The notes beneath the pieces are model-generated. The model ran no database searches. It was not told the origin of the DNA and saw nothing but the letters and a program-made list of their open reading frames with translations. This document shows positions 30,337 through 64,000 of a stretch of 64,000 nt of DNA, one piece after another. Numbering within the stretch: the first letter of the stretch is position 1; every line of letters starts with the position of its first letter. Source of the stretch: Xanthostigma xanthostigma (taxonomy: Eukaryota > Arthropoda > Insecta > Raphidioptera > Raphidiidae); NCBI GenBank assembly GCA_963575645.1, contig OY754469.1:38398753-38462752 (forward strand). The letters run 5' to 3'. Position numbers and translations under genes: made by a program.

Positions 30337-30590
30337 TTTTTTGAGGTGATAACGTCTTACAAATTGATGAAACACCGGCTGCACGCACGAAAAAGTGTCA
30401 CGTTCCGCCTGAGCCTGAGCGTGCAAGCGAGAGCGCGGTATAAGCGATAGGGAGGCACGATCGGCCCAAGCGTCGGATTGTACGCATTTCTCTCTCTTCT
30501 CGCGTGACGTCAGAGAGTTCATCAATGTTTCTTTATGACGTTATCACGTAAAACTATCGTCCGTAAACCGACTTTACAAACAACCAATTT
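30337..30590 (-). mobile_element. Family M MITE (copy A, inverted)
   Basis: Minus-strand copy running from TTGGTTGTCTGTAAAG to GACGTTATCACGT(C)AAAAA. Inner inverted repeats ACGTGATAACGTC / GACGTTATCACGT. It contains the recurrent ORF starting MMNSLTSREKREKCVQ, found also in copies C and D. Confidence 0.8.
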
Positions 30591-38652: not shown

Positions 38653-39930
38653 ATGGTATACAACTACTTCTATTGTCCTGATGAAGGATATTTTGGAGAA
38701 AATGATTTGTATGACCATTTGTCTGAATTGGTTGCCTCGCCCGACAAGTTGATGAAGCACGGCTATCCGATCGAGATATTAAATCACCCCGGTTCAGCTA
38801 TGGTGTATAAAATATCTTTTGAATCAGAAACTGAATCTGTTCAGAAATTAAATTTTTATGAGCGATCTGGGGTGAGGTTATTTACGAATCACCAACATAA
38901 AGACGATATAAAATTGGTTTATAACAAAGTATCCGATCCGACGATCATATTACCTTCGATTTTATCATCAAAAAGCCAAAATGTGATCATACCCGATGAT
39001 TATGTATGTTTAGAATTTCAATGTAAATTTACTGAAAAAGATGTGGTGAATATGTCTTTCAGATTTGCCGGAGACATTACAGATTATAACAACAATAATA
39101 TTGAAGCAAGTGAACAATTGAAATGTGTAAGATGCAAACGTGGCTTTTTCGTGAACAAAAATGGCGATTATATGACTAAAGAGAATTGCTTTTACCATCC
39201 AGGAAAGTTGCACGGAGAAAAGTATAGCTGCTGTTCAGGTGATAATACTAAGAAAGGCTGTAGCAAAAAAGACGTACATGTTTGGAACGGTACAGAGCCC
39301 GGTTTCAATCCAATGAAAGGATTTGTGAAGACGCAACCGAGACCTCTTCATCGGCAACTGGACGACCAAAGAGTTTATGCACTCGACACGGAAATGTGTT
39401 ACACGTCAAACGGTTTGGACGCAACCAAAATTTCTGTCGTCACGGTCGATAATCAAGTTATCTACAAGTGCATGATTCAACCGACGACGAAAATTGTAGA
39501 TTACAACACCAAATATTCTGGAGTCACAGCCAGCCATTTTGTGAAGGCTGGTCCAGTCAAAACGCTGAAAGAAGTTCAGGAACATTTGTTGTCGTTTATA
39601 TTTTCGGATACCATTTTGATCGGCCATGGACTAGAAAACGATCTGAGAGCGTTGAAGATAATTCACTATAATGTGATCGACACGGCGTTCCTGTTTCCGG
39701 ACCCGCGAGGTTTTCCTTATAGGACGTCATTAAAAAGCTTAGCAAAGTGTTATTTGAAACGCAGTATCCAAAACTCGTTTTATGGACACGATTGCTTGGA
39801 AGACGCCACAGCAACTATGAACCTAGTATTATGTAAATTGGGATTACCATCAGTTTCGAAGCCTAATTATTCGTTACCCTGGTTTGATTCTAACAACAAT
39901 AATTTACAAATTTCGCGACATAAATTATAA
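38653..39930 (+). CDS. REXO1/GOR/prage-like DEDDh RNA exonuclease (425 aa)
   Basis: Predicted 3'-5' exoribonuclease of the DEDDh (DnaQ-like) superfamily. The REXO1/GOR/prage group trims structured RNAs, and Drosophila prage acts in maternal RNA decay. Exo I is ALDTEMCYT (D245, E247), Exo II GHGLENDL (D330), Exo III YGHDCLEDA (H379, D384), so the catalytic set is complete. Residues 156-211 form the Cys/His-rich region of this family: C158, C161, C179, H182, C193, C194, C203, H209. Residues 30-55 hold the GYPIE..NHPGSAM block shared with 59885-61564. The ATG has A at -3 and G at +4 and follows an exon that starts at 38545. It is shorter than typical prage (over 800 aa) and lacks the basic N-terminal region. 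AATAAA at 39929 overlaps the stop and a second lies at 40137. Likely a duplicated gene that is still intact; expression is unknown. Confidence 0.85.
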   Translation: MVYNYFYCPDEGYFGENDLYDHLSELVASPDKLMKHGYPIEILNHPGSAMVYKISFESETESVQKLNFYERSGVRLFTNHQHKDDIKLVYNKVSDPTIILPSILSSKSQNVIIPDDYVCLEFQCKFTEKDVVNMSFRFAGDITDYNNNNIEASEQLKCVRCKRGFFVNKNGDYMTKENCFYHPGKLHGEKYSCCSGDNTKKGCSKKDVHVWNGTEPGFNPMKGFVKTQPRPLHRQLDDQRVYALDTEMCYTSNGLDATKISVVTVDNQVIYKCMIQPTTKIVDYNTKYSGVTASHFVKAGPVKTLKEVQEHLLSFIFSDTILIGHGLENDLRALKIIHYNVIDTAFLFPDPRGFPYRTSLKSLAKCYLKRSIQNSFYGHDCLEDATATMNLVLCKLGLPSVSKPNYSLPWFDSNNNNLQISRHKL

Positions 39931-40986: not shown

Positions 40987-41890
40987 GCAACCAAAATTTC
41001 TGTCGTCTCGATTGATGGTCAAGTTATCTATACAACTACATGATGCAACCGACGACGAAAATTGTAGATTACGACACTCAATTTTCTGGAGTCACGGCCA
41101 GAGATTTTGAAGAGATTGGCCAAGTCAAAACGCTGCAAGAAATTCATGAAAATGTGTTGTCGTTTATATTTTCGGATACCATTTTGATCGGTCAAGGATT
41201 CGAAAACGATCTGAGAGAGCGTTGAAAATAATTCACTATAATGTGATCAACACTGCGTTCCTGTTTCCGGACCCGCGAGGTTTTCCTTGTAGGATGTCAT
41301 TAAAACGATTAGCGAAGTATTATTTGAAACACAGTAGGTATCCAAGATTCGGTTTATGGACACGGTTGTTCGGAAGATGCCCGAGCAAGTATGGACGTAG
41401 TAATGTATAAATTAGGATTATACGACCGGTTTCGAACAAGGCCGTAGCTAGGATTTCATTTCGGGGGGAGTCGAGCTCTGGACCAGAGACAATAAGCAAC
41501 AGCTTTATTTGAAAATAAGAAGACATATATTATAATTTTACATAAATATAAATTTAATTAAAAGACAGCCGAAAAGATTTCGATGAAAGAGTTTAATGAT
41601 TCATTAATTAATTTATTAACAATTCATTACATATCAATTTTACTCGTTCCGACAAACGTGGAATCCAATTATTGTATCACAGATCCGAAAAAATCCGAAA
41701 AAAGAGTCGAAAATATTTTAGTAAGTATATGTATAAAACAGTGGGTTGGCTAAGGTATTACCGGGAGGGGTTTGAACCCTCTAAACACCCCCCCCCCTGC
41801 TTACGGCCTTGGTTTCGAATCCTGAATATTCGTTGCCCTGGTTTAATTCACATGATAATTTACAAGTTTTGCTGAATAACCAGGCATTTG
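40987..41890 (+). pseudogene. 5'-truncated, frameshifted copy of the exonuclease gene
   Basis: Homologous to 39421-39915. It begins at GCAACCAAAATTTCTGTCG, after the Exo I site, so Exo I and the whole Cys-rich region are missing. Frameshifts: +2 near 41030, +2 near 41214 (GAGAGAGCG for GAGAGCG) and +4 near 41335. Exo II reads GQGFENDL (His lost) and Exo III reads GHGCSEDA. A hAT MITE (41437-41811) splits it; coding-like sequence resumes with GTTTCGAATCCTGAATATTC. Similarity runs past the stop (ATAACGTA..ATTTCGTAGG, compare 40065-40085), so it is a tandem segmental copy rather than a retrocopy. Confidence 0.85.
41437..41811. mobile_element. hAT-type MITE with perfect 8-bp TSD, inside the pseudogene
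   Basis: CAAGGCCGTAGC at the left and GCTTACGGCCTTG at the right. TSD GTTTCGAA at 41429-41436 and 41812-41819. G-rich (GGGGGGAGTCGAG) and C-rich (ACCCCCCCCCCTGC) runs lie just inside the ends. Non-coding. Confidence 0.85.
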
Positions 41891-55880: not shown

Positions 55881-56449
55881 GCAAGGTGACCTCTTAAATG
55901 ACAAGGAATGATTTTAATACCAACTGTGTAAAATGGTGTGTGTGTCGTAGCTGCCCTGGGAATGGTGTTGTCACAACAAGCACGTTTCGAACAAAATGGT
56001 TGATGTTTAAAATACATTTCCTCTTATAATTGTAATTTTGCAAGAATTGAACAGTTTTTTATCCTTTTTTATTAAATAATATTGTTCATAACATAAGTAG
56101 ACAATTTTGAAACTCCCGCTTTGATGCGCTTTGGTGAGCTGGCGCCATTTCAGCGATGCCAATGACTGAAAAAAGTTCGTCAAAAGTACATTTTCATTAA
56201 TTTTCATGCTATCATGTTGGCATTAAAATTATTCCTTCAGACAAATAAGAGAAGCTCGAATAGCATTGAGTTTCATACCCCTGGTCAGTCCTGCATTAAA
56301 GTTCCGTGTCCCGTATTATAGGAAATGTCCCGCATTATTACGTGAATTTTACGAGACCCGTGTGGCTATATGAAAAAGACTTTTTTTTGGCTCTTCAAAT
56401 TCTACCCAAAACAAAGTTTTTTAGTTTAGTCGTTTGGTTTTGGTGTTCC
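55881..56449. other. Gene-free stretch
   Basis: No gene recognised. GTCCCGTATTATAGGAAATG near 56310 is a piece of GTCC-rich repeat similar in style to 51509. Confidence 0.3.
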
Positions 56450-56612
56450 TATTAATAAAACTTAAAAATATTGATTTATTTAGCTTTATACCCCGCCCCC
56501 CAGAAAAAAAAATATCTACGCCCTTGTGTGAAGCGAGCACATAATAGCAATTAAGAAAACTAGTACTGAAATCTAGCGGCAAATCCAGCCTCGTATGCAG
56601 CGAACTTTAAAA
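56450..56612. repeat. Right end of a CAAGRGCGTAGATA hAT element joined to a family P end
   Basis: TTAATAAAACTTAAAAATAT to AATATCTACGCCCTTG (56526) is the hAT right end. GTGTGAAGCGAGCAC to CAGCCTCGTATGCAGCGA is the P right end, directly adjoining, so the hAT element probably inserted into P. Confidence 0.6.
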
Positions 56613-57439
56613 TAAAATCGTTGCAACGAATATATCAAACCACTATATAGTATACAACCCAGCCCTAAATTTTAACGGCACATGGCAGCACAGAGGATAA
56701 TTTCAAAAACACCCGTTCTTTCCGTAGTTACAGCACCAGTCAATTCAACATATTACGATATTTTTTCATTGCAGAGCTACGGCTTCCCGTATAAACTGGG
56801 TCGTAATTTTGGAAAATAGGCTACGGCATATTTTTTTCTAGTTATATTAAGGATCAATCTATGTCCGTATTGTAACAAATTTTTCATTTTTTACTTTGTT
56901 AATTAATGGCGAATGCTTTTAAAAGACACTTTTTACGGTTTTTAAAATTTTTATAAAAATTTTTCTGCTAAAAAAATTAAAAAAATGGTACAATAGGGAC
57001 ATAGATTGATCCTTAATCTCCATAAAAATAATTTTTCATAATTTTATCTCTCGTTTTACGATCAGATTTATACGGGACCGCAGACCACTGTATTGCATTG
57101 AGAAAACCAGGGGAAACGGGCTCTTAACAGTCACACGACTTGTAATAACATCACGTGCGAGATATACTTATATGTGGTGTTTTTTGCACGTGCCCACTTT
57201 AAAATAACTGATTTTCACATTATAATTTGTCAACATTTTTGACAGTTCAATTTTGAGCAAGTTCACTTCTAATTGTAGGCTGCGTTGTATTCGCATGCGA
57301 TTGGAAACGTCATGACTATGATTTACTATGGAAATGATAGCACGATCACACATTTTCTTTTACTTTACACAACTTTACACCACTAGTGCTAAATGTGTCT
57401 TTTTACGATCGCTAATATTATTATAGGATTATAGTGAAC
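56613..57439. other. Gene-free stretch
   Basis: No gene recognised. Confidence 0.35.
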
Positions 57440-57450
57440 TTATCTCAAAA

Positions 57451-57897
57451 TAAATAAAATTATCGACCAATTTTTTCAGACTATATATTAACAAAAGAAT
57501 AATAAAATTTTAAATCAATATTTCATCTAATGAAATATTGATTTATAATTTTATTATTCTCTTGTCAATATATATAGTCTGAAAAAATTGGTTGTCTGTA
57601 AAGTCGGTTTACGGACGATAGTTTTACGTGATAACGTCATAAAGAAACATTGATGAACTCTCTGACGTCACGCGAGAAGAGAGAGAAATGCGTACAAGCC
57701 GACGCTTGGGCCGATCGTGCCTCTCTATCGCTTATACCGCGCTCTCGCTTGCACGCTCAGGCTCAGGCGGAACGTGACACTTTTTCGTGCGTGCAGCCGG
57801 TGTTTCATCAATTTATAAGACGTTATCACGTCAAAAAAATGGTCGATAATTTTATTTATTTGAATAGTTGTATTCAGACGTTAATCAAAGATTTGTA
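57451..57897 (+). mobile_element. Family E inverted-arm element (copy E4), split by a family M MITE
   Basis: TSD TTATCTCAAAA (57440-57450) versus TTACCTCAAAA (57898-57908), 10 of 11. Arms TAAATAAAATTATCGACCAA and the inverse; a short inner palindrome CAATATTTCATCTAATGAAATATTG replaces the motif-bearing core. Tail TATTCAGACGTTAATCAAAG. Confidence 0.7.
57587..57835 (+). mobile_element. Family M MITE (copy C)
   Basis: TTGGTTGTCTGTAAAGTCGG to TTATAAGACGTTATCACGTC plus A-run. It sits inside the A-run of the right arm of E4. Almost identical to copy D. Confidence 0.85.
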
Positions 57898-57908
57898 TTA
57901 CCTCAAAA

Positions 57909-58399
57909 CATCCTTATTTTCATAAGTGTAACTAAAGAAGGCTTTCACCCACTCCATAAAAAATAGTACGTTTTGTCAGTGAATTATCAACAAAACCTGT
58001 CCACAGCAGCTTTAAATCTTACGTCAAGGCTTATTTTCGTTTTTATTCAAAATACATTTATGTGGAATTTAATTTGTAAGTATTTGCCGTAAGATTAAGA
58101 TAAAGGTTCGAAGAATAATGGAAAGTACTGAAAATCAGTAGTAGTATTTACACAATTGAAAAAAAATCCGAAGGGTTCAGTTTTTGGTTTTACCGCAGGG
58201 TTTTCCGCAATCCTACGTCTTTTGAAAATAAATGTTTCAATGTATAAATTTTATCGATGTTTTTTTTTTAATTGTAACAAACCGCACATTAAAAATAAAT
58301 GATAATTTGCCTGAGACTTCATTGGCTTTTAAATCATACCTCAGCCATTGTTATATCTATATATTTCTTTCAAAGTTTTGTCTGTTTTTAATTTTATCT
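57909..58399. other. Gene-free stretch
   Basis: No gene recognised. Confidence 0.35.
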
Positions 58400-58541
58400 A
58401 TTGGCGTTTTCGATATCGAGAACTTTCCCGGGGCAGGTCAGGCCGAATAGGTTACTATTGGTTAAAGAAATGATTTATTATTTAACCATTCTATTAGGCC
58501 TGACCTGCCCCGGGGCAGTTCTCGATACCGAAAACGCACAA
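58400..58541. mobile_element. 142-bp hairpin MITE
   Basis: GGCGTTTTCGATATCGAGAA and CCCGGGGCAGGTCAGGCC are mirrored by GGCCTGACCTGCCCCGGGGC and TTCTCGATACCGAAAACGC. It lies about 700 bp upstream of the TBL2-like start codon. Confidence 0.85.
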
Positions 58542-58689
58542 AATTTTGAAAGAAAAAAAAAACAGGGTGTTGTGGTTAGACATTAAATGTTCATTTGTTA
58601 AGTAAATATTTTGTTTTTAATAAGCGATATATTTTGTTGTATTGCGAGAAATATTTTAATAAAAATATGGCAATTGTCAGTTTAGCACA

Positions 58690-59264
58690 TTGAATTACTA
58701 GAACTGTTTCACCGTTCTCGCGTATTTAGAGAGACTCACGAATTCGTAAAATTAAATAATTCAAGTGAATTCCCACTACTTCCCCGCAACAATCATTGAT
58801 AAAGTGGGGGGTTAACAAACGCTACGTGTACAGCGTCGAACAGCGCGCGCCAAACTTCTTACAAGTCACGGGTTTTCTGTTGTAGAGTTTCATAGTTTGG
58901 TCGACTTTCGAAGAAGCAACTTGGAATATTATACTCGACGAGAAATCAGTTAGTGTAAATGTATTCAAGAAGAAGGTGCAGTAGAATGTATTCAGAAAAG
59001 AATTATTGCAATAATAGAATGCAACCTTACATTTTAACGCAACTTGAAGATTCGCGCCGTTTATTGAAGTTACGCTATTCGCCGTAAGAGAATTAAACCG
59101 AGCGTGTTTGGAGATTTTTGTTTTGCGGGAGCGCAGCGCATCATTCTGCAGTCATCGTGGACAACTCACAACGTGGTCAGTGCCGGTGAATTTTTGACAG
59201 TGTACGGTCGTGAAAAGTAAAGTCGCGTGGTGTATTTTCGCCGTTTCGTCAGAAATTTTTTATT
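58690..59264 (+). promoter_or_regulatory. Probable promoter and 5'UTR of the TBL2-like gene
   Basis: Richer in CpG than the surroundings (GAACAGCGCGCGCC, GCGGGAGCGCAGCGCATC, GAAGTTACGCTATTCGCCG). Initiator-like TCAGT words are at 58946 and 59177. No transposon fragment is recognised between 58700 and 59264, unlike everywhere nearby. The exact start site is not determinable. Confidence 0.4.
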
Positions 59265-59729
59265 ATGACTAATAAAAACATGAATGCGAGTGAATCATTA
59301 ATAGAAAATGTAGAAGTGTTATTAGCCCTGATATTGGGTACTTTTTTGATAATTATGTTCTATGTTATGAAATGGTCAAATACAGCGAATGAAAAACAGC
59401 AGACAAAAAATAAAAGTAAGCTTCAAATACTTAATTTAATAAAGCCGTTGCAATTTGTTAGGTTGTGAATTGAATAAAATGTTCCTAACTATCTTTTTCT
59501 TTTACAGTGCAAGAAGTAAAGCAGCAACAACATAGTACACTTAAGAAGGACACTGTTTCCGCGACTGCGAAAAGTAAAAAGAAGACAGCCGAAGGCCGTT
59601 GGACGGGACGTTCAGAAAAAAATACTTACTCACACTCGTGGTGTTTGACTTCATTGAAAGGACATACCGGACAGATCCTCGATGTAGACATATCGAGCAA
59701 CGAGAAATATTTAGCTTCGTGTGCCGATG
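59265..59729 (+). CDS. Transducin beta-like 2 (TBL2)-type protein, N-terminal two exons
   Basis: Exon 1 is 59265-59415 (donor A|GTAAGC), exon 2 59508-59729 (acceptor TTTTCTTTTACAG, donor GATG|GTGAGT); both junctions are phase 1. Residues 14-36 (NVEVLLALILGTFLIIMFYV) form one membrane segment, as in TBL2, an ER-anchored WD40 protein linked to the PERK stress pathway. A Lys/Gln-rich linker follows, then a first WD40 blade: SHSWCLTSLKGHTGQILDVD and EKYLASCAD. TBL2 continues with D-R-x-V...W and six more blades, but no further TBL2 exon is recognisable before the window ends. The next reading frame is instead the exonuclease ORF. The gene is therefore incomplete here, interrupted, or chimeric. 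Confidence 0.75.
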
Positions 59730-59884
59730 GTGAGTATTTTCTTGTTATTTTCTCTATTCTTTGATTCGAAGATAAAAAAAAAGCATAAATATTTGGAAAC
59801 CGAAAAGTGAATTGTAAATTTACAAAAGACAAAATTTATCATTTTTGGCAAGTTCCACAATTTAGTTGAGTGAATGTTTGATTA

Positions 59885-61564
59885 TTGACCGTGTGGTGTT
59901 TATTTTTGGAAGAACTTGGAGAGTCCACGTCGACCAGTAGCGGTAGTGAATTCAGCAAGGAGAACTCACCGTGTCCTTCGCCTCACGCCCCGGCGCAAAC
60001 CTTAAGCAGAAGGCAGCGCAAAAATCGAAGGTATCGAAAACGTGAAGAAAAACCACCGCCCTCAGAACCGATCGATTTAAAAGAGAAACGAACAAATATG
60101 TCTTCTTATTCGTTCGGTACTGCGCCACCTAGACTATTGTCGCCTCTACGTTTTCATACAAAACTGAACATGAAAGAGTTAAATCTCTATAAAAGCCTCA
60201 GTGAATTTGTCGTATCGGATCCGACCACACTAATGAACTGCGGCTATCCGATCGAAATTAATAATTATCCGGGCTCGGCTATGGTGTTCAAAATGTGCTT
60301 CAAATTGCTTAAAACTCTGCCGACTTTAAATCATTACGGACGATCTAAACTAAAATTAGTAAGCAATAAATCTTTGTTGAATCGTCGAATGCGTGATAAC
60401 ATAGTGCTACTTTGTAAAAGTGAAAATGGACTTATTCAACCGTCGATAGTCTTGCCGGCGTCCTTATTGAGTAGCTGTAATACTTCACCGGTACCCAATC
60501 AGTGTATAAGTGCGTTGTATCCTTGTGAATTCACCGTGAAAGATTCGGTGGACGTATCGACCGGAATCGACTACAACGACATCAAAGCCGAATGGAAAGC
60601 AAATCACGACGATGAGCTTTCGGCGGACAGCGGTCAAGGTTCGGGCAATTCGTCTCCCGCTTCCGAAGAAGACTATCATTTAAAAGACATCGATAACAAA
60701 ACAGTCGAACACATCGGTGAAGAGTTGAAGTGCGTGAGATGTGACCGCGGCTTTTTTGTCACCGGCACCGGTGATTATTTGACGGAAGAGAAGTGCTTTT
60801 ATCATTGGGGCAAAGTGCGCGGACCGAAGTACACGTGTTGTTTTAGTAGTAGTACTTCGAAAGGTTGTACTGTAAATAACGTGCATGTCTGGAAAGGTAC
60901 CGAGACCGGATTCAACGGACCGTTGGAAGGATACGTAAAGACAAAATCGAGACTTCCGCACCGGATAGAAGAAGATTGCGAGGAAAGGATTTTTGCACTC
61001 GACACCGAAATGTGTTACACGTCAAACGGTCTAGACGCAACAAAAATCACAATCGTTGCGACTGACGGACGTATTGTTTACGATTATATGATAAAACCGA
61101 CGACGAAAATCGTCGATTATAATACTAAATATTCGGGAGTTACGTCTGGTGATTTCAAAAAAAAACATCGAGTCAAAACGTTGCAGGAAGTCCAAGAAGA
61201 TTTGTTGTCGTTTATTTTTGCCGATACGATTTTGGTCGGGCACGGCTTGGAAAACGACTTGAGAGCGCTGAGAATAATTCATTACAGAATTATCGACACG
61301 TCTTTGCTGTTTCCGGACGCGAGAGGTTTTCCGTATAGGATGTCGTTAAAAAGTTTGATTGCGTTGCATTTGAAACGTAAGATTCAAGCGTCGCCTAACG
61401 GACACGACTGCTTGGAAGATGCGAGAGCAAGCATGGAACTAGTGTTATATAAACTTCACAAACAGTTCGAACGTCCCGTTTTGATAAATAACCAGTTCAT
61501 GACCTTCAGTGTAATGTCGTCGCCGTTGTGCTATCTGAATAGTTCGCAAATTGTACGATTTTGA
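59885..61564 (+). CDS. REXO1/GOR/prage-like DEDDh RNA exonuclease, intronless ORF, possibly fused to TBL2 exons
   Basis: The frame is open from TTG 59885 (559 codons); the first ATG inside is 60098 (488 aa). Numbered from 59885: a Ser-rich start (ESTSTSSGSEFSKENS), a basic patch (RRQRKNRRYRKREEK, about 42-56), the GYPIEINNYPGSAM block (about 119-132), a Ser/acidic linker (about 235-265), the Cys/His domain LKCVRCDRGFFV...CFYHWGK...YTCC...GC...HVW (about 280-340), and the exonuclease with D373, E375, D458, H507, D512. The catalytic set is complete. The coding-like sequence before ATG 60098 means the true start lies in an upstream exon. AG acceptors at 59910 (GGAAG|AA) and 59919 (TTGGAG|AG) would join exon 2 of the TBL2-like gene in frame. 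Polyadenylation signal AATAAA at 61768. Confidence 0.85.
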   Translation: MTVWCLFLEELGESTSTSSGSEFSKENSPCPSPHAPAQTLSRRQRKNRRYRKREEKPPPSEPIDLKEKRTNMSSYSFGTAPPRLLSPLRFHTKLNMKELNLYKSLSEFVVSDPTTLMNCGYPIEINNYPGSAMVFKMCFKLLKTLPTLNHYGRSKLKLVSNKSLLNRRMRDNIVLLCKSENGLIQPSIVLPASLLSSCNTSPVPNQCISALYPCEFTVKDSVDVSTGIDYNDIKAEWKANHDDELSADSGQGSGNSSPASEEDYHLKDIDNKTVEHIGEELKCVRCDRGFFVTGTGDYLTEEKCFYHWGKVRGPKYTCCFSSSTSKGCTVNNVHVWKGTETGFNGPLEGYVKTKSRLPHRIEEDCEERIFALDTEMCYTSNGLDATKITIVATDGRIVYDYMIKPTTKIVDYNTKYSGVTSGDFKKKHRVKTLQEVQEDLLSFIFADTILVGHGLENDLRALRIIHYRIIDTSLLFPDARGFPYRMSLKSLIALHLKRKIQASPNGHDCLEDARASMELVLYKLHKQFERPVLINNQFMTFSVMSSPLCYLNSSQIVRF

Positions 61565-61767
61565 ACGCGAAACAAATGAACGTTGAACAAGAAACAAGTG
61601 AATCGAAATTCTGTTACGTACAAATATTTTTACAAACATTTTTTTAATTAAATGAAATGTTGTGATCTCGTTTATTTAAAGTGAAGTTTATTTTTTTTAC
61701 ACATTTTTATAACTGTATAGCGTTAAAAAAACACATTTTCATCGCGCTTTTTATTTATTGGCTTGTA

Positions 61768-61773
61768 AATAAA
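61768..61773 (+). terminator. Polyadenylation signal (AATAAA)
   Basis: AATAAA 204 bp after the exonuclease stop, in GTAAATAAATTTC. No other canonical signal lies closer. Confidence 0.45.
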
Positions 61774-62925
61774 TTTCATTTGTTTTATCACCGTTTTTTT
61801 ACTCGGAATCATAATTACTATAAAATTTTTGCATCATTAAATTTCTTTTTATTTTAGTGCGTAATTAGTGAACGTATTTTTGGAGGAATATGAATCTTTG
61901 CACAAATTTGAAATAGTGAAACGCTGCAACTATTTTTTTTAAATTTAATGCTATATTTTTTTACACCCTGAAACGTACCCTTTGAGTCAGAATGCACACG
62001 AAATAGAAAATTTTCTACAGAAACTACTTACGGGAAAGTGTTAACAAGTGTTTTTATAATTCCCAAAATTCAAGTTCTTATTTTTTTAAGAGCCTTACAT
62101 GCGATTCTTTTTTATGAAATGAATTCAAAAACTTTAAAATTTAGAAATCATTTGACTGAAAATAATATGTAAGCGCCTCTAAGAAAATTTGAATGTTTTT
62201 ATGAACGACTAAAAGTATGATAGCTGGACAGCTGTGGTTTTTGGGAAACTTCTGTATTTCTGGTGATTTTTTTGCGGTAAACACTAAAATAACTCATATT
62301 CACCATGTGCAAGATTTAAGATAAGGCTTGCAGCGCACGTGGTGACAAAAACTAAAAGCAAAATATATTTTTATGGTTTCCATGGCAGTTTTATATAACA
62401 GAAATAATTGGAAATAACGCGTTTGAAAACATTTTGCCGTTTACATCCCGCCACTTGTGCTCACATGGCAATGAACAGTGAATAGTCAGAAAAAATCCAG
62501 GTGTCATACTTTAATGATTTCGTGACTCATGGGGCCGATTATTCATTTCATTATATTTTTTTTTGGGCAAGAATAGCTTGCCACATCCTATTTTTATGGC
62601 TGTAAAATATTAGTTTGCTTGACTTATTACCCGACTATGGCAAAGCCAAAAGGAAAGGTTGTTTATAATTGTAAATAGTTAAAAATCACAACACTTAATT
62701 GTATTTTTTTTATTAGATTTGTACTTCTAAATGTAAATTGTTAAAACGTTTTATATTAAAAAAAATACACGTAATACTGCCCTTTTGTTTTTATAAACAT
62801 TTATATTATAGTAATAATTAGGGCATGGTATTTTTTATAGTGAGATTTTTTAAATAAAATTATAACTTTTTTAATTAATTACTTGTTATTTATTTTACAT
62901 TCTTTTTCAGATCAACATTCTTTGA
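61774..62925. other. Gene-free stretch
   Basis: No gene recognised. ATTACCCGACTATGGCAAAG at 62627 is a fragment of the repeat also seen near 8200 and 42187. Confidence 0.35.
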
Positions 62926-62940
62926 ATAATTATAAGTTTA

Positions 62941-63034
62941 AATCTTTGATTAACGTCTGATCAGAAGTCTTCAATAAATAAAATTATCGACCAATATTGT
63001 CTGAAAAATTGGTCGATAATTTTATTTATTGAAG
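62941..63034 (-). mobile_element. Family E inverted-arm element (copy E5, minimal), 13-bp TSD
   Basis: TSD AATTATAAGTTTA at 62928-62940 and 63035-63047. It starts AATCTTTGATTAACGTCTGA; arms AATAAATAAAATTATCGACC / GGTCGATAATTTTATTTATT with only a few bases between them. The whole central core, including the hammerhead-like motif, is missing. Confidence 0.75.
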
Positions 63035-63388
63035 AATTATAAGTTTAATTAACAAAACTTTTTTTCATTTACCCAAACTACCTAATGCGCCATTTTAATT
63101 AAATTTGCAGGATAACTATTCGTTAAAAATAACTGAGCTACTGGATTGAAAATTTTGAAAAGTCAATATTTTGCAAAATACTGGATAACGGCAATTATTA
63201 CTGAATTTATGTTTATAAATTTTCGACTTGCGTCTTTTTATAGGTAGGTGTTTAATAATCAGAATAATATTAAATGAATTCAAACTTTTTTCAAGACCAC
63301 CAACAGCTATTAGGCTATTTAGGCCTAACTGCAATTTATTATTAAGACCAACCTGTATACTATCCACTGAATCATTTGATATTAAAAA

Positions 63389-63637
63389 ATTGGTTGTCTG
63401 TAAAGTCGGTTTACGGACGATAGTTTTACGTGATAACGTCATAAAGAAACATTGATGAACTCTCTGACGTCACGCGAGAAGAGAGAGAAATGCGTACAAG
63501 CCGACGCTTGGGCCGATCGTGCCTCTCTATCGCTTATACCGCGCTCTCGCTTGCACGCTCAGGCGCAGGCGGAACGTGACACTTTTTCGTGCGTGCAGCC
63601 GGTGTTTCATCAATTTATAAGACGTTATCACGTCAAA
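63389..63637 (+). mobile_element. Family M MITE (copy D)
   Basis: TTGGTTGTCTGTAAAGTCGG to AAGACGTTATCACGTCAAAA, inserted in an A-run 137 bp upstream of the putative ATG at 63774. It includes the recurrent ORF beginning MMNSLTSREKREKCVQ. Confidence 0.85.
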
Positions 63638-63808: not shown

Positions 63809-64000
63809 GTAAGCATCAGTAAATAATATAAAGCAAATAAAACAAAAGACTACAACTAGAAAAAAAGTGAACATCTATTCATGTTAACCGGTAAAAACAA
63901 AAGATTGCAACCGAATTTATTGACTAAGTGAAAAACTGTGCAATAGATAATAGTGCAATTTTCTTAATTCACAATTAAGATCGGAGATCTAAGTTAATTA
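63809..64000 (+). other. Putative intron, window end
   Basis: A-rich sequence after the donor; no acceptor or exon seen before the window ends. Confidence 0.25.

Follow-up and report, generated by a model that had tools for sequence, protein, structure and literature searches.

The stretch of Xanthostigma xanthostigma DNA analysed here (the window; 64,000 bp, G000:C6:38398753-38462752, from a genome of 623 Mb in 28 contigs) very probably carries the beginning of a complete five-exon TBL2 gene, with the large 3′ coding exon of a KIX-less Rex3/REXO1-type exonuclease nested, in the same orientation, in its 14.9-kb second intron. We assign this reading a probability of roughly 85%; the evidence is the genomic DNA of one species, and at that level the nested layout is established. 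The original prediction had placed the N-terminal exons of TBL2 in splice phase with the exonuclease open reading frame, and had raised a possible chimeric gene, the product of which would be a membrane-anchored DEDDh RNA exonuclease with one WD40 half-blade. The overall anatomy held, with deviations of at most two bases, but exons 3-5 of TBL2 were found intact further downstream, which removes the main ground for a chimeric gene and rules out a truncated or replaced TBL2; the alternative named at the time, a prage-like copy in a TBL2 intron, matches the layout. What stands of the chimeric reading is an alternative transcript, since the joining of exons 1-2, or of exon 1, to the exonuclease is phase-compatible and the exonuclease apparently lacks a start of its own. 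Judged from the DNA, such a TBL2-exonuclease splice form is possible.

TBL2 and its long second intron

Human TBL2 served as the tblastn query; it matched exon 2 inside the window and the downstream part of the gene at window-coordinates 74.6-78.0 kb. Exon 2 (59508..59729, + strand), which was identified by tblastn, Pfam and exon assembly, follows the acceptor TTTCTTTTACAG, encodes the start of the first WD40 repeat (Pfam WD40, 27 bits against a cut-off of 27) and ends in phase 1 at G|GTGAGT, with the donor at 59729, exactly as had been claimed. Within the window, tblastn at a threshold of E 1 gave no TBL2 match beyond exon 2, in agreement with the earlier statement that no further WD40 sequence appears there, and the proposed search past position 64000 recovered exons 3-5 beyond the window end, at window-coordinates 74625-75221, 76767-76952 and 77815-78035 (tblastn and exon assembly). 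Intron 2 (59730-74624, 14.9 kb, + strand) runs beyond the window end at 64000, and neither the window nor window-coordinates 60001-160000 contain N bases. Coding exon 1 (59265..59415, + strand; phase-1 donor GTAAGC) was unmatched in tblastn with human TBL2 and was placed only by its ATG, frame, splice phase and a hydrophobic stretch read from the sequence by eye (VLLALILGTFLIIMFYVM).

When joined through four GT-AG introns, the acceptors of which all read CAG, the five exons give a single 458-residue frame ending in a stop. Like human TBL2, the predicted protein shows the expected similarity from the WD40 region to the C-terminus, with residues 85-454 aligning at 41% identity over 372 amino acids (BLASTP, E 4e-112); unlike it, the N-terminal 84 residues, including the hydrophobic stretch, were left unaligned, and the gene has a long intron 2 that hosts another gene. 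Exon 3 opens ATCGCACT, and the exon 2-3 junction reads CAD-D-RTVLLW where the human protein has CADDRTIRIW. A genome search with exon 2 (five candidates scored) returned its own place and one weak C10 match (37%, E 0.54). As far as the DNA shows, TBL2 is whole and not truncated.

Other elements were noted in and around the gene. A repeated element that reads KETLMNSLTSREKREKCVQ.DAW in one frame occurs at 30373-30534 (−), 57641-57802 (+) and 63443-63604 (+), flanking TBL2 exons 1-2 on both sides, and similar pieces are present in L031, in L032 and near the C13 and C1 loci. Intron 2 contains a hairpin at 62969-63034, formed by two arms of 27 bases, CTTCAATAAATAAAATTATCGACCAAT and the reverse complement, and carrying AATAAA motifs. 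Outside the window, a coding-like segment on the minus strand (L008, window-coordinates 79367-79603) presumably encodes ribosomal protein S2, judging by how it reads, and a fragment resembling the PAN2 exonuclease domain (L010, window-coordinates 95500-96000) is one that we take, by its look, to be that domain, which would put a possible second gene for an RNA exonuclease ~17 kb past TBL2.

The exonuclease open reading frame and its relatives

Inside intron 2, on the same strand as TBL2, an open reading frame extends from 59882 to a stop at 61562-61564 (560 codons); it runs for 549 codons without a stop from 59915, and counted from the first in-frame ATG it has 488 codons (60098..61564, + strand). 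A CHORD-like Cys/His region (60725..60892, + strand; CVRC..CFYH..CC..GC..HVW), the C and H residues of which are invariant in 3/3 aligned copies, is followed by a DEDDh exonuclease domain (60986..61453, + strand; DTE, ENDL, GHDCLED) that was recognized by Pfam RNase_T (30.8 bits, cut-off 24) and matched the solved structure of small RNA degrading nuclease 1 (5z9x, E 3e-22). All DEDDh residues are present, the Exo I region (DTEMCYT) contains a tyrosine and IQ precedes Exo III; the relevant part of PMC12129344 gives these Exo I and Exo III traits, together with CHORD, as Rex3/REXO1 features. The Cys/His pattern and MCYT match the CHORD and Exo I aromatic descriptions in that part of the paper, the Pfam search itself having given no CHORD profile, and PF15870, which spans the KIX domain, was unreported for the ORF in the Pfam search at E 1. 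By its sequence the predicted protein appears to be a Rex3/REXO1-type DEDDh RNA exonuclease, KIX-less and Prage-like in layout. A PF00929 family search omitted this locus although RNase_T exceeds its cut-off there, so that search misses members. A possible poly(A) signal (AATAAA, 61768..61773, + strand), ~200 bp 3′ of the stop, is one of 10 AATAAA/ATTAAA motifs listed in 61565-63500, and near 61.77 kb the exon would probably terminate at a poly(A) site of its own.

A genome search for relatives (12 candidates scored) listed 13 matches, including the ORF itself. The intact ORF C6a (38653..39930, + strand; 429 codons), ~20 kb upstream, gave two matching pieces in the window at 66% and 42%, with 66% identity over residues 268-526, and C8, which has a 470-codon open frame, likewise gave two pieces (65% and 37%). 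Two other matches fell in C6b, a broken fragment recognized by sequence matches (41016..41417, + strand), two in a C13 gene and one in a C1 fragment; a C11 gene, which gives the impression of being Rex1/Rexo5-like, matched at 39%, and a further single match had an E of 2.2. C6a and C8 are 82% identical over 1428 bp of DNA, with a dN/dS (NG86) of ~0.40, while the exonuclease ORF yields ~0.24 against C6a and ~0.27 against C8, at dS values (1.55 and 1.39) that are near saturation. PF15870 exceeded its cut-off only on C13 (C13:14631161-14631454; 42.6 bits against 27 for neighbouring matches combined, the single matches on this contig being weak at E 0.03-0.24, and those at this place at E 0.10 and 0.24), where REXO1-like exonuclease exons follow at C13:14633822-14634715; C6a showed a weak match to the domain end only (positions 125-163, E 0.56). 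Pattern scans with two short peptides each gave 34 matches in genome contigs and 47 in viral contigs, none of them confirmed. The last of the 13 matches from the genome search, at window-coordinate 95662, is by its look presumably a piece of PAN2. The idea that the relatives arose by retrocopying of a chimeric mRNA was unsupported, because the genome search did not place TBL2 exon 2 beside any other exonuclease copy, the C10 match being the only one elsewhere, and because C6a, C8 and C1 have common sequence upstream of the acceptor-like site.

Drosophila Prage is described in part of PMC12129344 as a Rex3 variant without KIX, some eukaryotes carrying such a variant beside the canonical protein, and a section of PMC4889664 describes six RNA isoforms of Drosophila prage (CG42666), with differing 5′ ends and a common 3′ region, and prage RNA in ovary and early embryo. 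Set against these accounts, the ORF resembles Drosophila prage in combining a CHORD-like region with a C-terminal DEDDh domain, in having an N-terminal extension and no KIX found, and in the presence of a KIX-bearing gene elsewhere in the genome, here on C13 (PMC12129344, PMC4889664). By this comparison the KIX-less exonuclease and the C13 gene fit the pattern of a variant beside the canonical protein. Unlike in Drosophila, the main coding part is one exon in a TBL2 intron and diverged relatives are present, and the likeness to Prage is one of layout only. A search for literature joining TBL2, REXO1 and insects found none, and ‘transducin beta-like protein 2’ was absent among the matches listed in a wider search.

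The beginning of the exonuclease exon

The ORF had been predicted to lack a start codon of its own before coding-like sequence begins, and this was borne out: the first in-frame ATG, at 60098, is preceded, from 59915 on, by 61 open, coding-like codons. GC content is 27% in 59730-59909 and 50% in 59913-60097, with the shift at about 59910. The pre-ATG stretch (59913..60097, + strand) has a codon score of 0.20 in the ORF frame, as do the 300 bp after the ATG, compared with at most 0.063 in the other five frames and at most 0.10 in 320 background windows; with a codon model trained on the same ORF and stops penalised in the background windows, this coding call is partly a call of openness and GC. 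Because the stretch between the intron and the ATG looks coding, an upstream 5′ exon is likely, and the exonuclease exon would most likely open at a splice acceptor near 59912. With only 183 bp between exon 2 and this acceptor, a separate promoter and exon within the gap are unlikely, and the 5′ exon would be needed at or upstream of TBL2 exon 2.

The intron end and candidate acceptor (59862..59912, + strand) read TTTATTTTTGG followed by AAG, ending at 59912, and the acceptor looks weak. Two AG dinucleotides had been said to join exon 2 in frame and both do so (CAD-E-LGESTS or CAD-ESTS), but their last bases are 59912 and 59921 rather than the 59910 and 59919 first given, a difference of one to two bases. 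At the aligned position the relatives read TTTATTTTCAG (C6a and C1) and TTTATTTTTAG (C8), and the exonuclease copy has GG where these three have AG. In an ungapped comparison of the last 48 bp before the break, a length picked after the alignment had been seen, 30/48 positions were identical to C6a, 30/48 to C1 and 32/48 to C8; over 40 bp the chance values were 0.003, 0.03 and 0.001, respectively. When the intron was aligned locally with the relatives and gaps were allowed, it did no better than shuffled sequences, which reached the score in 240/1000 cases for C6a, 788/1000 for C1 and 495/1000 for C8.

Between the acceptor site and the ATG, similarity beat shuffles for C1 (2/2000 local, 1/500 global), lay within them for C6a (172/2000 local, 177/500 global) and was mixed for C8 (552/2000 local, 7/500 global). 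Stops in the ATG frame over this interval number two in C6a and three in C1, and none in C8 (31 codons) or in the exonuclease copy (61 codons). As C6a has pre-ATG stops but an intact ORF, it should start at its own ATG; C8 need not. The donor phase required is 1 for the exonuclease copy, 0 for C6a and 2 for both C1 and C8, so the phase at the acceptor is unconserved in the family. The idea of an old phase-1 intron common to all copies arose because C6a and the exonuclease can be aligned on Glu-Ser in their first codons; it was dropped since these phases differ and since REEKP in C1, the sole clear similarity before the ATG, has a different frame from the acceptor.

Upstream, 10 strict ATG-to-donor pairs were listed in 56265-59729, in a scan that gives exon 2 no credit, its ATG being in exon 1. 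Five of them are phase 1; four of these run through the TBL2 exon 1 donor, and a 16-bp exon at 58060-58075 makes up the fifth. When a REXO1-type first exon was sought by its zinc-finger motif, none turned up in window-coordinates 1-100000 or at the 10-kb C13 locus, which makes this search uninformative.

Candidate 5′ exons and splice forms

Within the nested layout, the source of the 5′ exon can be read in several ways. It is quite possible, if somewhat short of an even chance, that exonuclease transcripts start at a promoter of their own upstream of TBL2, from which a short 5′ exon would be spliced past TBL2 exons 1-2. The six Drosophila prage isoforms with varied 5′ ends and a common 3′ region, as described in that section of PMC4889664, are consistent with this, as is the presence of C6a on the same strand, 20 kb upstream. 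The coding scan listed nothing above 18.3 between 41.5 and 59.2 kb, but a short exon could evade it and, as the score of 17.1 for TBL2 exon 2 shows, its sensitivity is low. Such a transcript must also skip TBL2 exon 2, the acceptor of which looks the stronger by eye (unscored); this exon sits between any distal exon and 59913, and transcripts would tend to pass through it, which argues instead for a splice form shared with TBL2. On that account, possible but on balance doubtful, the exonuclease exon would be an alternative terminal exon of TBL2, with exon 2 (or exon 1) spliced to 59913 to encode a putative membrane-anchored exonuclease with the TBL2 N-terminus, and skipping of the exon would give TBL2. 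Exons 1 and 2 are both phase 1 and both join 59913 in frame, exon 2 offers the nearest upstream donor, leaving a 183-bp intron, and the exon 1 donor accounts for most of the listed phase-1 pairs. The phase fit alone is weak, however, since a third of all AGs would fit by chance and there were two to choose from. The pre-ATG frame, closed by stops in C6a and C1, is open here but open in C8 as well, so its openness is not peculiar to the copy behind TBL2. The AAG acceptor looks weak beside the four CAG acceptors of TBL2, with GG in place of the relatives' AG, exon 2 was seen beside no other copy, and prage in Drosophila has its varied 5′ ends with ‘WD40’ occurring 0 times in the main text of PMC4889664.

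Transcription from within intron 2, with translation from the ATG at 60098 and the preceding open stretch a remnant, is unlikely. The stops of C6a and C1 precede an ATG at about the aligned place, where the intact C6a should start, and the relatives' AG being GG in the exonuclease copy points the same way; against this, the sequence before the ATG has stayed open and coding-like despite a dS over 1.3, and C8 forces no ATG start either. It is very improbable that the exon is an unexpressed duplicate lodged in the intron: the family does include the broken copies C6b and C1, but this copy retains 549 open codons, an intact predicted active site and an estimated dN/dS of about 0.25.

With the exonuclease exon nested in TBL2, transcripts that contain it would yield an RNA exonuclease and transcripts that skip it would yield TBL2. 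KTI12 lies in an intron of TXNDC12 on the same strand. As in this pair, treated in part of PMC3192792, one gene sits within an intron of its host, a layout in which the two may interfere or inclusion of an exon may be forced; unlike KTI12, the nested exonuclease exon seems to need an upstream 5′ exon. Human TBL2 is described in a passage of PMC4231078 as an ER type-I membrane protein that binds PERK and is anchored by residues 9-31, so a fusion would plausibly be ER-tethered, although the two N-termini were left unaligned. We consider it rather unlikely that TBL2 has captured the exonuclease exon as an alternative terminal exon, such that one gene would give either the ER stress factor TBL2 or, via a weak acceptor 183 bp past exon 2, an ER-tethered 3′-5′ RNA exonuclease with the TBL2 anchor. 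A nested gene alone would be ordinary, whereas the fusion, if true, would represent a new gene made by exon capture and would bring an RNA exonuclease to the ER membrane, next to stress signalling.
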